A DNA stretch of 64,000 bases from Halorhabdus tiamatea SARL4B (GTDB taxonomy: Archaea; Halobacteriota; Halobacteria; Halobacteriales; Haloarculaceae). The notes below the pieces were generated by a model. That model saw only the letters and a list, made by a program, of their open reading frames with translations. It did not search any database and had not been told where the DNA came from. Below, one piece after another: positions 13,466-40,053 of this stretch (position 1 is its first letter; every line of letters begins with the position of its first letter). A program made the translations under genes and the position numbers. The stretch is taken from the NCBI RefSeq assembly GCF_000470655.1, contig NC_021921.1, forward strand, positions 682,001-746,000. Direction: 5' to 3'.

Positions 13466-14053
13466 CTACAGCAGGACTGCTGAAACGCTGATAATCGACA
13501 AAATAAATCCAAAAATAACGGCGATATTCAACAATACGGACTTTTTGCTCGGTGTTCCCCGCCCCATCTTCTTCGCGTGTTCGTATGCAGTCCGGAAGTG
13601 TTTGATGCTGTCTTCGAGCGAATTCGCCTTTGTCTCTCTCCCACGGCTCATTCGATTCGATATTTTGTCCTCCCTCTCGTTGAACTCCTCGTCGCTCATG
13701 TGCTCCAGCAGAGCAATCCTATATACGCTCTCGGGTAACCTGCTGCTGTACGTCTCTTCGAGTTCCTTTTCAGTAGCAGATTGTGCGCTGTCATATGCTG
13801 CCCGTTTGATGTGGGCCTCCATCTCCCCCAAGTTCTCCCGTGCTTTCGGTATGTCCCCGTCATCAATATTCTGAAAGATTTTGCTCATATGATCTAGCGC
13901 ATCCCGGAAGTTAGTCATAGCTAACCAGTTGTGTTCGCCACGAACCTCCTCAGCCCATATGTGAGTCTTTTTCGCCTGTGTGTACGGTTCGTCTAAGATA
14001 CGTTGAACTTCAGATAGTACCTCCTCTTCGTCTTCGGGCGGATCTGCAGACAT
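13466..14053 (-). CDS. Tail-anchored helical protein of unknown function
   Basis: A 195-residue protein not recognised by family. It is highly charged and predicted helical for residues 1-170, with heptad-like stretches around 75-105 and 145-165. It ends in a single hydrophobic segment (about 172-195, 'SVLLNIAVIFGFILSII...') preceded by basic residues, i.e. a tail-anchored topology with the bulk in the cytoplasm. Base composition is clearly more A+T-rich than the flanking sugar genes, suggesting acquisition. It starts 9 bp after the stop of the 107-residue gene upstream, so the two form an operon. Function unknown; a membrane-linked effector of a small conflict module is one possibility. Confidence 0.7.
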   Translation of the reverse strand: MSADPPEDEEEVLSEVQRILDEPYTQAKKTHIWAEEVRGEHNWLAMTNFRDALDHMSKIFQNIDDGDIPKARENLGEMEAHIKRAAYDSAQSATEKELEETYSSRLPESVYRIALLEHMSDEEFNEREDKISNRMSRGRETKANSLEDSIKHFRTAYEHAKKMGRGTPSKKSVLLNIAVIFGFILSIISVSAVLL

Positions 14054-14062
14054 ACAATTGAA

Positions 14063-14386
14063 TTATAAGCCGAGTTTTTCTTCGACGACTCGCTTCCGGT
14101 GTTGCAGCTCTTCCCTACTGACTGTTTTGAGACGGTCAGAGTCTCGATACCCCTCACGTGCACCGCGTGGATGGTACGGTTTGTGAATCTCAGTGCCGAG
14201 CTGCTCGTCGATCTCGCCCATACTCATCTCTTCCAGTTCCGCTACAGAAACATTCAATTCCGATGCGGTCTCTCGGACGAGGTCGTCGAAGAACTCCTCG
14301 GAACTCATAGAATCGAAATCAATGTCCTCTGCCACCGTCTTCTCGCTGTTTTCTTCATCGGTGGCATCATCAAAGAGTAACGTCAT
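14063..14386 (-). CDS. Small acidic protein of unknown function, first gene of a two-gene operon
   Basis: A 107-residue protein, not recognised. The first half is very acidic (residues 1-60), with helix-rich 'SSEEFFDDLVRETASELNVSVAELEEMSMGEIDEQLG'. The second half is basic ('KPYHPRGAREGYRDSDRLKTVSREELQHRKRVVEEKLGL') and could bind nucleic acid or a partner. The ATG at 14386 is chosen because a TATA-like AACTATTGT/ATACAAAACTATT (minus strand, 14405-14418) lies about 25 bp upstream; an in-frame extension to 14494 would run through this promoter and is unlikely. It is followed by the tail-anchored protein gene. Confidence 0.65.
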   Translation of the reverse strand: MTLLFDDATDEENSEKTVAEDIDFDSMSSEEFFDDLVRETASELNVSVAELEEMSMGEIDEQLGTEIHKPYHPRGAREGYRDSDRLKTVSREELQHRKRVVEEKLGL

Positions 14387-14724
14387 TGTGTGAATTAAGT
14401 GGACAATAGTTTTGTATGCCTTTCGGTATCCTCCGACGCCGAGTTGCCCCTCCCTACACCCATCTTTGGGCCAAAATCCGGGGTTTCCGCACAATTCATA
14501 TACTCACGGGCACACGGCGATGACACTTAAAAATTTCCCGGGAATCGACGCGTGAGCCCTGCTGCAAGGGGACGAGCGGAGTGCAGTACGTTCACAGCAT
14601 GAGACGTTCCCGTCACTCACACTGCCAAGAGATTCCCCCGGCTTGCGTCCATTCGATCTGCGACCGCCTCGTAAGGCAATGCAGTCTCGTAACTACTTAC
14701 TTCGGGGGCATCCGAAGTGACGAC
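14387..14724. other. Intergenic region before the uronate isomerase gene
   Basis: 338 bp without a convincing gene. It holds the divergent promoters of the small acidic-protein operon (TATA near 14405-14418, minus strand) and of uxaC, plus an operator-like inverted repeat at 14699-14718. An ORF extends uxaC upstream to 14581 but has no family similarity. Confidence 0.6.
14699..14718. promoter_or_regulatory. Inverted repeat immediately upstream of uxaC
   Basis: ACTTCGG-N6-CCGAAGT ends 6 bp before the uxaC ATG. It resembles the TTTCGG-N5-CCGAAA repeat in the uxuA/SDR region, suggesting a shared regulator. It could also form a short hairpin in the 5' end of the mRNA. Confidence 0.4.
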
Positions 14725-38417: not shown

Positions 38418-38492
38418 GTGGGAGCTACGGCCGGAGTTGCCAATGCCGTTTGGTTGCGATACAGCCTCCGATTCGAGTCGGCCCACGATTCA

Positions 38493-38963
38493 TCACTCCG
38501 CGGAAGAGCTTGCACACCCGTAGAACAGTCGGAGGTCCCCCCTGCCTTGGGCAGCGTTGTCGAGTTCTCTGTCCGGCGTCGGCCCACCGACTTCGATTCG
38601 CAGACTCACATTGTTCGGTTCGCTACAACCGTCGGGATATTCGGAGGGGAATGCAGACTGTACTGGAGCCCACTCAAACTGTTTCGTCGCTCCGTCTTCG
38701 GTCGTAATGCCGATGTTTGCAGGGGATCCCGATATCCGTCTGTTCTCGTCTGCAGTGTTCGACGTAAGCTGATACTCACGATCGAAAATAGTCTCACCTT
38801 GTGAATTCTTGACGACAATGGAAATCTCTCGTGTGGTATTGGAGAGATTCAGCACGCTGATCGAGTGGCCCTCCCGCTCAGACGCATTCAGACAGCCGGT
38901 GAATCCACTAAGAACAGCCGAGATACCACCGATTATCAGAGTCCTGCGTGCTACGTCAACCAT
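38493..38963 (-). CDS. Predicted lipoprotein of unknown function
   Basis: A 156-residue protein with a signal peptide and lipobox ('ARRTLIIGGISAVLSGFTGC', about 5-24; two arginines suggest Tat export). The mature part is beta-rich ('SISVLNLSNTTREISIVVKNSQGETIFDREY'). The pattern resembles the lipoprotein at 18260-18718, so the two are probably diverged paralogues. The gene starts 23 bp downstream of the 186-residue low-GC ORF on the same strand. Function unknown. Confidence 0.75.
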   Translation of the reverse strand: MVDVARRTLIIGGISAVLSGFTGCLNASEREGHSISVLNLSNTTREISIVVKNSQGETIFDREYQLTSNTADENRRISGSPANIGITTEDGATKQFEWAPVQSAFPSEYPDGCSEPNNVSLRIEVGGPTPDRELDNAAQGRGDLRLFYGCASSSAE

Positions 38964-38985
38964 GGTAGGTTATGATCGGTTGCCA

Positions 38986-39546
38986 CTATCTCCCGTATCC
39001 GTCATCCACATCACCTTCCGTCAACTTCATAATTGTGTCCCCATCTCCTTCTGTGCTGGTCATCTCTTTTTTTGTTTCTGTTTCCCCATCATACACGATA
39101 GAGATCCCACTGGGTCCAACTCCGATTGAATAATCGACATCAGAGTCATTCCAGGTGTGAATGTATTCCCCTCTGACCCATCTTTCGTCAGGATCGTAAT
39201 CACCGACTGGTTCTACGCGTACCGATGCACTGCAGTAATCGTTTCCTGGCTGGTGATCATTGACGCTGAATCCCACACCGTGAGATAGATCATCGTCCTC
39301 GGCAGTGACATTGCCAGTAGTCGAAGTAGTCTCAGATAGACTGTTTGAATAGAAGTCCCACTTATTTGGATTATAATAAATGCCAGCAACGTCTTCTGGT
39401 TCGTACCCATTACTGTCAAACCATGCATCACCATCATATGTCCACTCCATATTTATTTGATAACTTCCATCGATAAGCCTCCATAGATAGAAGGACAAAC
39501 AGATATCGCAGTCTTCTTCAGTTCCATCAACATTGTCAAACCCCAT
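38986..39546 (-). CDS. Second part of a probably split secreted protein gene
   Basis: A 186-residue A+T-rich ORF with no signal peptide of its own. It has aromatic/Asp-rich beta-type segments ('MEWTYDGDAWFDSNG', 'GVGFSVNDHQPGNDYCSASVRVEPVGDYDPDERWVRGEYIHTWND') and two Cys near the N-terminus (CDIC). It starts inside the stop codon of the Tat-signal ORF (TAATG at 39544-39548). A single extra G in the G6 run just upstream would join the two frames into one Tat-exported protein of about 289 residues. It looks like the mature domain of haloarchaeal Tat-secreted proteins; function unknown. Confidence 0.65.
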   Translation of the reverse strand: MGFDNVDGTEEDCDICLSFYLWRLIDGSYQINMEWTYDGDAWFDSNGYEPEDVAGIYYNPNKWDFYSNSLSETTSTTGNVTAEDDDLSHGVGFSVNDHQPGNDYCSASVRVEPVGDYDPDERWVRGEYIHTWNDSDVDYSIGVGPSGISIVYDGETETKKEMTSTEGDGDTIMKLTEGDVDDGYGR

Positions 39547-39854
39547 TATTTCCCCCCTCCCATCTCGTCATCATCAAATTTAAATCCGTACGTATTACCT
39601 GCAAAGCTAATCTGCTTGTTTTTGAGGAAATTGTGAACCGCCTTTTCACCAGCATTCCGACGGATTTTCTTCGCTTGCTCCAATGTTTTTTTACCCTTCT
39701 TGTTATTTTTTTCTTTTGCCTGGGTGCTCTTTACAGCGGACACAGCAACTGGGACCCCTGCTCCGACAGTTGTGACTGACTGTAGGAATCTTCGACGATT
39801 CGTCAAAATGTCTTTTCCAGCCGCATTCCCTGATTGCATTTTTCCATCGGACAT
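39546..39854 (-). CDS. Tat-signal first part of a probably split secreted protein gene
   Basis: A 102-residue ORF (ATG at 39854) with a twin-arginine signal ('NRRRFLQSVTTVGAGVPVAVSAVKS', about 17-41) but no lipobox. It is followed by a lysine-rich helical segment ('KEKNNKKGKKTLEQAKKIRRNAGEKAVHNFLKNK'), unusual for a haloarchaeon, and ends 'DDDEMGGGK' at a stop caused by the frame of a G6 run. The lower GC and AT-ending codons set it apart from the flanking ftsZ/kor genes and suggest transfer. An in-frame extension to 39998 is AT-rich and improbable. Confidence 0.6.
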   Translation of the reverse strand: MSDGKMQSGNAAGKDILTNRRRFLQSVTTVGAGVPVAVSAVKSTQAKEKNNKKGKKTLEQAKKIRRNAGEKAVHNFLKNKQISFAGNTYGFKFDDDEMGGGK

Positions 39855-40053
39855 CTTAACCACATATTCGTATGAGTACCACAGGTAATTATATTTTTTG
39901 GTATCATATACAACCCAATGTAGTAGTGAATAGTTTACGCAAGGATTGCCGAGGAGTGACATAACATGAAATGATGTACTCCAGTCCCGATACGCCACCT
40001 GTCCTGCAGGTTGCAGAAGGCTTTTTCTCGGTGGCGGGATAGTTCGGACCTAC

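Follow-up and report, generated by a model that had tools for sequence, protein, structure and literature searches.

The window analyzed here, a stretch of 64,000 nucleotides of the Halorhabdus tiamatea SARL4B genome, contains two overlapping open reading frames on the minus strand. The first of these, ORF1 (39546..39854), begins with the ATG at 39854, runs for 102 codons to a TAA at 39548-39546 and represents the N-terminal part of a gene, namely a Tat signal (NRRRFL), a lysine-rich helical segment and the start of a linker. The Tat motif RRxxL is kept at the N-terminus of ORF1, and TIGR01409 scores 15.6 bits against it, slightly below the 16.7-bit cut-off. The second frame, ORF2 (38986..39546), begins with the ATG at 39546-39544, extends over 186 codons to a TAG at 38988-38986 and represents the C-terminal part, a beta-rich domain that lacks a signal of its own. 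The two frames meet in the pentanucleotide TAATG (39544..39548, minus strand), in which the stop codon of ORF1 and the start codon of ORF2 have one base in common; these coordinates confirm the original prediction of a Tat-signal ORF that ends at a TAA and a 186-residue ORF that starts at the overlapping ATG.

ORF2 is read in the -1 frame relative to ORF1, and its start is preceded by GGAGGGGGG. The junction string, GGAGGGGGGAAATAATGGGG, matches the earlier quotation and contains, on the minus strand, a Shine-Dalgarno-like GGAGG (39560-39556) located 9 nt upstream of the ORF2 ATG and a run of six G (39557-39552); the codons at the junction are GGA GGG GGG AAA TAA. Upstream, a TGA at 39570-39568 closes the -1 frame, and therefore the frame change is confined to about 39567-39546, a zone of approximately 22 nt in the linker that is bounded by this TGA and by the TAA of ORF1. 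The G6 run is the sole homopolymer of at least four bases in the zone and is likely to be the exact place of the indel.

Immediately downstream, on the same strand, lies an intact gene of 156 codons for a Tat lipoprotein (38493..38963), with a lipobox, FTGC, recognized by eye. Together with ORF1 and ORF2, this gene occupies an AT-rich block (38421..40053; the ends, placed from flanking matches and GC content, are approximate), with a GC fraction of 0.435 in 39001-40000 compared to about 0.60-0.67 in the windows beyond the block. The flanking DNA matches are separated by 1,633 bp in H. tiamatea but by only 123-136 bp in four genomes of the genus (G050, G144, G139 and G268), and in all six other genus genomes searched, the block is missing from this site; in the remaining two (G088 and G318), the gene that adjoins the block on the FtsZ side also gave no DNA match. 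The suggestion that the block was probably acquired, which had been made from base composition, is thus strengthened by its absence from the site in these relatives. A second AT-rich block in the window (13466-14494; GC about 0.49) contains small ORFs of unrecognized kind and is flanked by genes that, from visual inspection, resemble those for mannonate dehydratase and uronate isomerase.

When ORF2 was used as the query against 391 genomes of the class, matches were obtained in 16, the genome of H. tiamatea itself included, and at 12 of the 17 loci found, a single ORF encompasses a Tat signal, a helical stretch, a linker and the ORF2 domain. A profile (A2) built from ten intact homologues was then run against 392 Halobacteriales genomes and matched in 68 of these at E 1e-5, a count that includes weak Tat-only matches. 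ORF1 and ORF2 match this profile separately and in collinear order, ORF1 at positions 8-82 (E 2.4e-8) and ORF2 at positions 92-275 (E 2.4e-42). The same order is apparent in the alignment with an intact copy from Halostagnicola sp. A56 (L131): residues 17-85 of ORF1 align with residues 14-80 of L131 and residues 3-177 of ORF2 with residues 99-274, and the stretch between the aligned parts measures 18 residues in L131 and 19 residues across ORF1/ORF2. ORF2 is 49% identical to another intact protein of the family (L002), and all nine invariant columns of the family are retained across ORF1 and ORF2. The pair is the only copy of the family in its genome; further, weak matches there (E up to 0.1) lie near the Tat part. 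Judged from these alignments, ORF1 and ORF2 are two halves of one predicted exported-protein gene, with the break located in the linker, as indicated by the single-ORF relatives and by the collinearity of the halves. Relatives in which a single ORF contains these parts in the same order bear out the central claim of the original prediction, that a frame change has split one gene for a Tat-exported protein, as well as the layout it proposed, a Tat signal followed by a helix and a beta-rich domain. As the pair lacks the continuous reading frame, from signal to end, that characterizes an intact member of the A2 family, it was classed as a broken member.

We inspected 73 distinct copies of the family, with 16 duplicate loci left out and 21 of the 96 places matched by the profile, mostly weak Tat-only matches, left unfetched; single-ORF status was assigned from profile coverage and ORF length, with start codons chosen by a script. 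In 57 of the 73 copies, a single ORF extends from the Tat signal through the helical segment and the linker to the beta-rich domain; in two of these (L068 and L070), RR was not seen at the expected position. The other 16 copies are damaged: four have frame changes, five have in-frame stops, one has an insertion, and six are truncated. In addition to ORF1/ORF2, the frame-changed copies are L006 (about 1180-1200, where the Tat signal contains an A6 run), L031 (close to the signal; the genome is 81% complete) and L085 (about 1820-1832, at an A8 run in the linker, with a shift in the direction opposite to that in H. tiamatea). In-frame stops occur in L016, L035, L047, L063 and L066, and truncations in L003 (near a contig end), L040, L069, L076, L082 and L088. 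The insertion, in L083 (1573-4083, reverse strand coordinates), separates two parts by approximately 2 kb; a 340-codon ORF between these parts resembles, by eye, an IS200/IS605-type TnpB. The linker (profile positions 75-120) is the site of the break in 9 of the 16 damaged copies, an excess over expectation (P about 0.0015 at a 20% share of the length, with limits set post hoc); poor conservation of the linker blurs the positions of the breaks. Because damage affects 16 of the 73 copies and arose by many routes, recent decay is the explanation that fits best. The locus is quite probably what is left of a single acquired gene that encoded a Tat-exported protein and was broken by a small indel, most likely of one base in the G6 run, in the course of ordinary decay. 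The retention of all nine invariant columns suggests that the break is young, and we infer that the mutation is real and recent and that the gene is dispensable.

The clearest competitor of this reading is an error of sequencing or assembly, such that the chromosome would actually carry the gene in one frame and the shift would exist only in the deposited sequence. The likely place of the break is a homopolymer, the rest of the gene is intact, including the invariant columns, and earlier H. tiamatea assemblies used Roche data (PMC3855842). To gauge the quality of the sequence, 224 kb of the H. tiamatea genome was compared with the genome G050, which yielded 149 gene matches at identity of at least 60%; of these, 135 align over at least 90% of their length in one frame. 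Two frame-change candidates among the 14 remaining genes, at about 21.0 and 57.3 kb, are antisense or intergenic ORFs and were discarded. Thus, no confirmed frame change was found among the 149 matched nearby genes, and sequencing error is therefore unlikely. Moreover, 128 kb of intact orthologues contains 19 G/C runs of at least six bases (18 of six and one of seven), which shows that a G6 is no rarity in this genome, and by the rule of three, this sample, which is devoid of G runs in AT-rich DNA, limits the chance of an error to at most about 2% per 0.9-kb gene; damage is, in any case, common in the family.

Two further mechanisms were considered. Under programmed -1 ribosomal frameshifting, slippage at GGG GGG AAA would yield the full protein. 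ORF2 is in the required frame, a GGG glycine codon can re-pair at GGG, a Shine-Dalgarno-like sequence accompanies the candidate site, and programmed -1 frameshifting has been described in archaea (PMC8211752). The Sulfolobus fucA1 gene, as presented in that report, resembles ORF1/ORF2 in having ORFs in the 0 and -1 frames and full-length relatives; it differs in having a slippery heptamer and a stem, neither of which is found at our junction. Specifically, the junction contains no in-frame heptamer of the form X XXY YYZ, as defined in the same source, and no downstream stem at a distance of 5-9 nt (z -0.59 and +0.73); in a longer fold of 141 nt (z -2.37), the G run is itself part of the pairing. 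The candidate site is common to no homologue, and we regard frameshifting as highly improbable. The same low standing applies to phase variation, in which length changes of the G6 run, occurring at a high rate, would turn expression of the gene on or off. In three damaged copies, the break coincides with or adjoins a run, namely G6 in H. tiamatea, A6 in L006 and A8 in L085, but these runs are in different places, one of them within the signal, and the junction itself has only the G6 and no long simple repeat. Six bases is short for a contingency tract. The 57 intact copies, 48.9 kb in all, contain 33 runs of at least six bases, of which 23 consist of A, 5 of T, 3 of C and 2 of G, and no shared tract was seen. 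Among the four mechanisms that had been offered for the split, decay is the best fit; neither programmed frameshifting nor phase variation received positive support, and sequencing error is unlikely.

A different possibility is that the two polypeptides are kept as products in their own right, with ORF2 translated by termination-reinitiation coupled to ORF1, and are perhaps exported together by the Tat system as a complex. The GGAGG nine bases before TAATG is a good haloarchaeal reinitiation site by comparison with overlapping gene pairs of Haloferax volcanii, in which reinitiation is strictly coupled to termination and the Shine-Dalgarno motif contributes to a variable extent (PMC6728339); both halves are well kept; the breaks in the family cluster in the linker; and a signal-less partner can be exported by Tat (PMC10924467). 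The resemblance to the H. volcanii pairs consists in the stop-start overlap and the Shine-Dalgarno motif before the second start, whereas the difference is that ORF1 and ORF2 derive from one gene and that no homologue is paired. No TAATG gene pair was present among the 72 other copies inspected, a result that also bears on the single-gene claim: homologues encoded as two genes with this overlap had been named as evidence that would refute it, and none was seen. Furthermore, inspection by eye revealed no restart signal in those copies whose linker contains an in-frame stop, and ORF2 has no signal. We also simulated random one-base losses in the 57 intact family genes (18,900 simulations): in 2,067 of the 18,900 cases (10.9%), an ATG belonging to the original frame overlapped the first stop encountered, so that the TAATG arrangement need not have been selected. 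With the additional presence of GGAGG at most 16 nt upstream, the count drops to 16 of 18,900, a figure that is not independent if the loss occurs in a G run. All considered, a maintained two-polypeptide system appears very unlikely, although the clustering of breaks in the linker and the good state of the halves leave room for a functional split.

Under the preferred scenario of decay, the intact gene would have encoded a Tat-exported protein of about 290 residues consisting of the signal, the helical segment, the linker and the beta-rich domain. An indel, most likely of one base in G6, would have shifted the second half to the -1 frame, so that ORF1 would now give rise to a stub that is still exported and, once the signal is removed, measures roughly 55-60 residues. 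Owing to the GGAGG and the TAATG at the break, ribosomes that terminate at ORF1 would probably reinitiate on ORF2, and from the coupled reinitiation reported for H. volcanii (PMC6728339), it follows that the ORF2 product is probably made; having no signal, this domain would be kept in the cell. The neighbouring lipoprotein gene is still intact. In its intact relatives, small frame change, dispensability and location in an acquired block, the locus resembles other frame-broken accessory genes (pseudogenes) of prokaryotes and, as a broken gene, is an ordinary case. Unlike typical pseudogenes, it has halves that look well kept and a reinitiation site at the break. An indel in a purine-rich stretch can thus create a reinitiation site, which suggests one way in which two genes might arise from one.

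The association with the lipoprotein was assessed using a profile built from eight proteins. This profile recognizes a lipoprotein adjoining 20 of the 74 family loci (the 73 copies and L131), with the weakest matches at E 0.002-0.013, a count favoured by the fact that four of the eight proteins were themselves taken from family loci; at 12 loci, four of these with damaged copies, the lipoprotein is directly downstream on the same strand. In a control comprising 464 kb of DNA, the window included, the profile matched the window's own lipoprotein gene and, weakly, one ORF of 400 codons. Relatives of the lipoprotein without an adjoining exported-protein gene exist in the genus (L106 in G050 and L107 in G088). 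The notion that the lipoprotein always accompanies the family was therefore rejected, as it is recognized at only these 20 loci and its relatives stand alone elsewhere. It is possible that the lipoprotein is an immunity or anchoring partner of the exported protein; frequent damage combined with a recurrent lipoprotein neighbour is what would be expected if the exported factor is costly and its partner protects or anchors. As a guess, the protein may originally have served as an exported accessory factor, possibly an antagonistic one, whose partner was anchored in the membrane.

In this connection, HmHapP (HFX_0892) of Haloferax mediterranei deserves mention. According to the published report (PMC12893001), it is an exported precursor whose cleaved helical N-terminal part kills haloarchaea, and it is similar to the present family in that a helical N-terminal part is separable from a larger C-terminal part. 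The likeness is one of layout only, and primer and peptide patterns of HFX_0892, employed instead of the protein sequence, were found in 0 of 391, 0 of 5 and 0 of 392 genomes. Should HapP be a relative, the helical part encoded by the broken gene would already be separate, with no need for proteolytic cutting. Extending this idea, the linker might be a favoured place of fission since the parts can work apart, with ORF1 as a ready-made exported helical antagonistic peptide, ORF2 produced via coupled reinitiation and the lipoprotein as the immunity protein; we consider this elaboration a long shot.

A by-product of the analysis is a little-known family of haloarchaeal exported proteins that Pfam and NCBIfam, in which nothing was found on the family beyond the Tat signal, do not cover. 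No relatives were detected in phages, viral contigs or a first scan of genome contigs, and PDB searches by sequence profile gave weak matches only, none of which was accepted as a relative. An AlphaFold2 prediction for intact L131, made together with the ORF1 and ORF2 sequences, was too poor for a fold search (mean pLDDT 40.9), and only the order of its predicted elements was used, with helices at 41-74 and strands at 111-272. The plasmid search returned one relative, a hypothetical protein of Halosolutus gelatinilyticus, and in PHROGs, only a single member out of ten had a match, to one unnamed family (E 3.4e-4).
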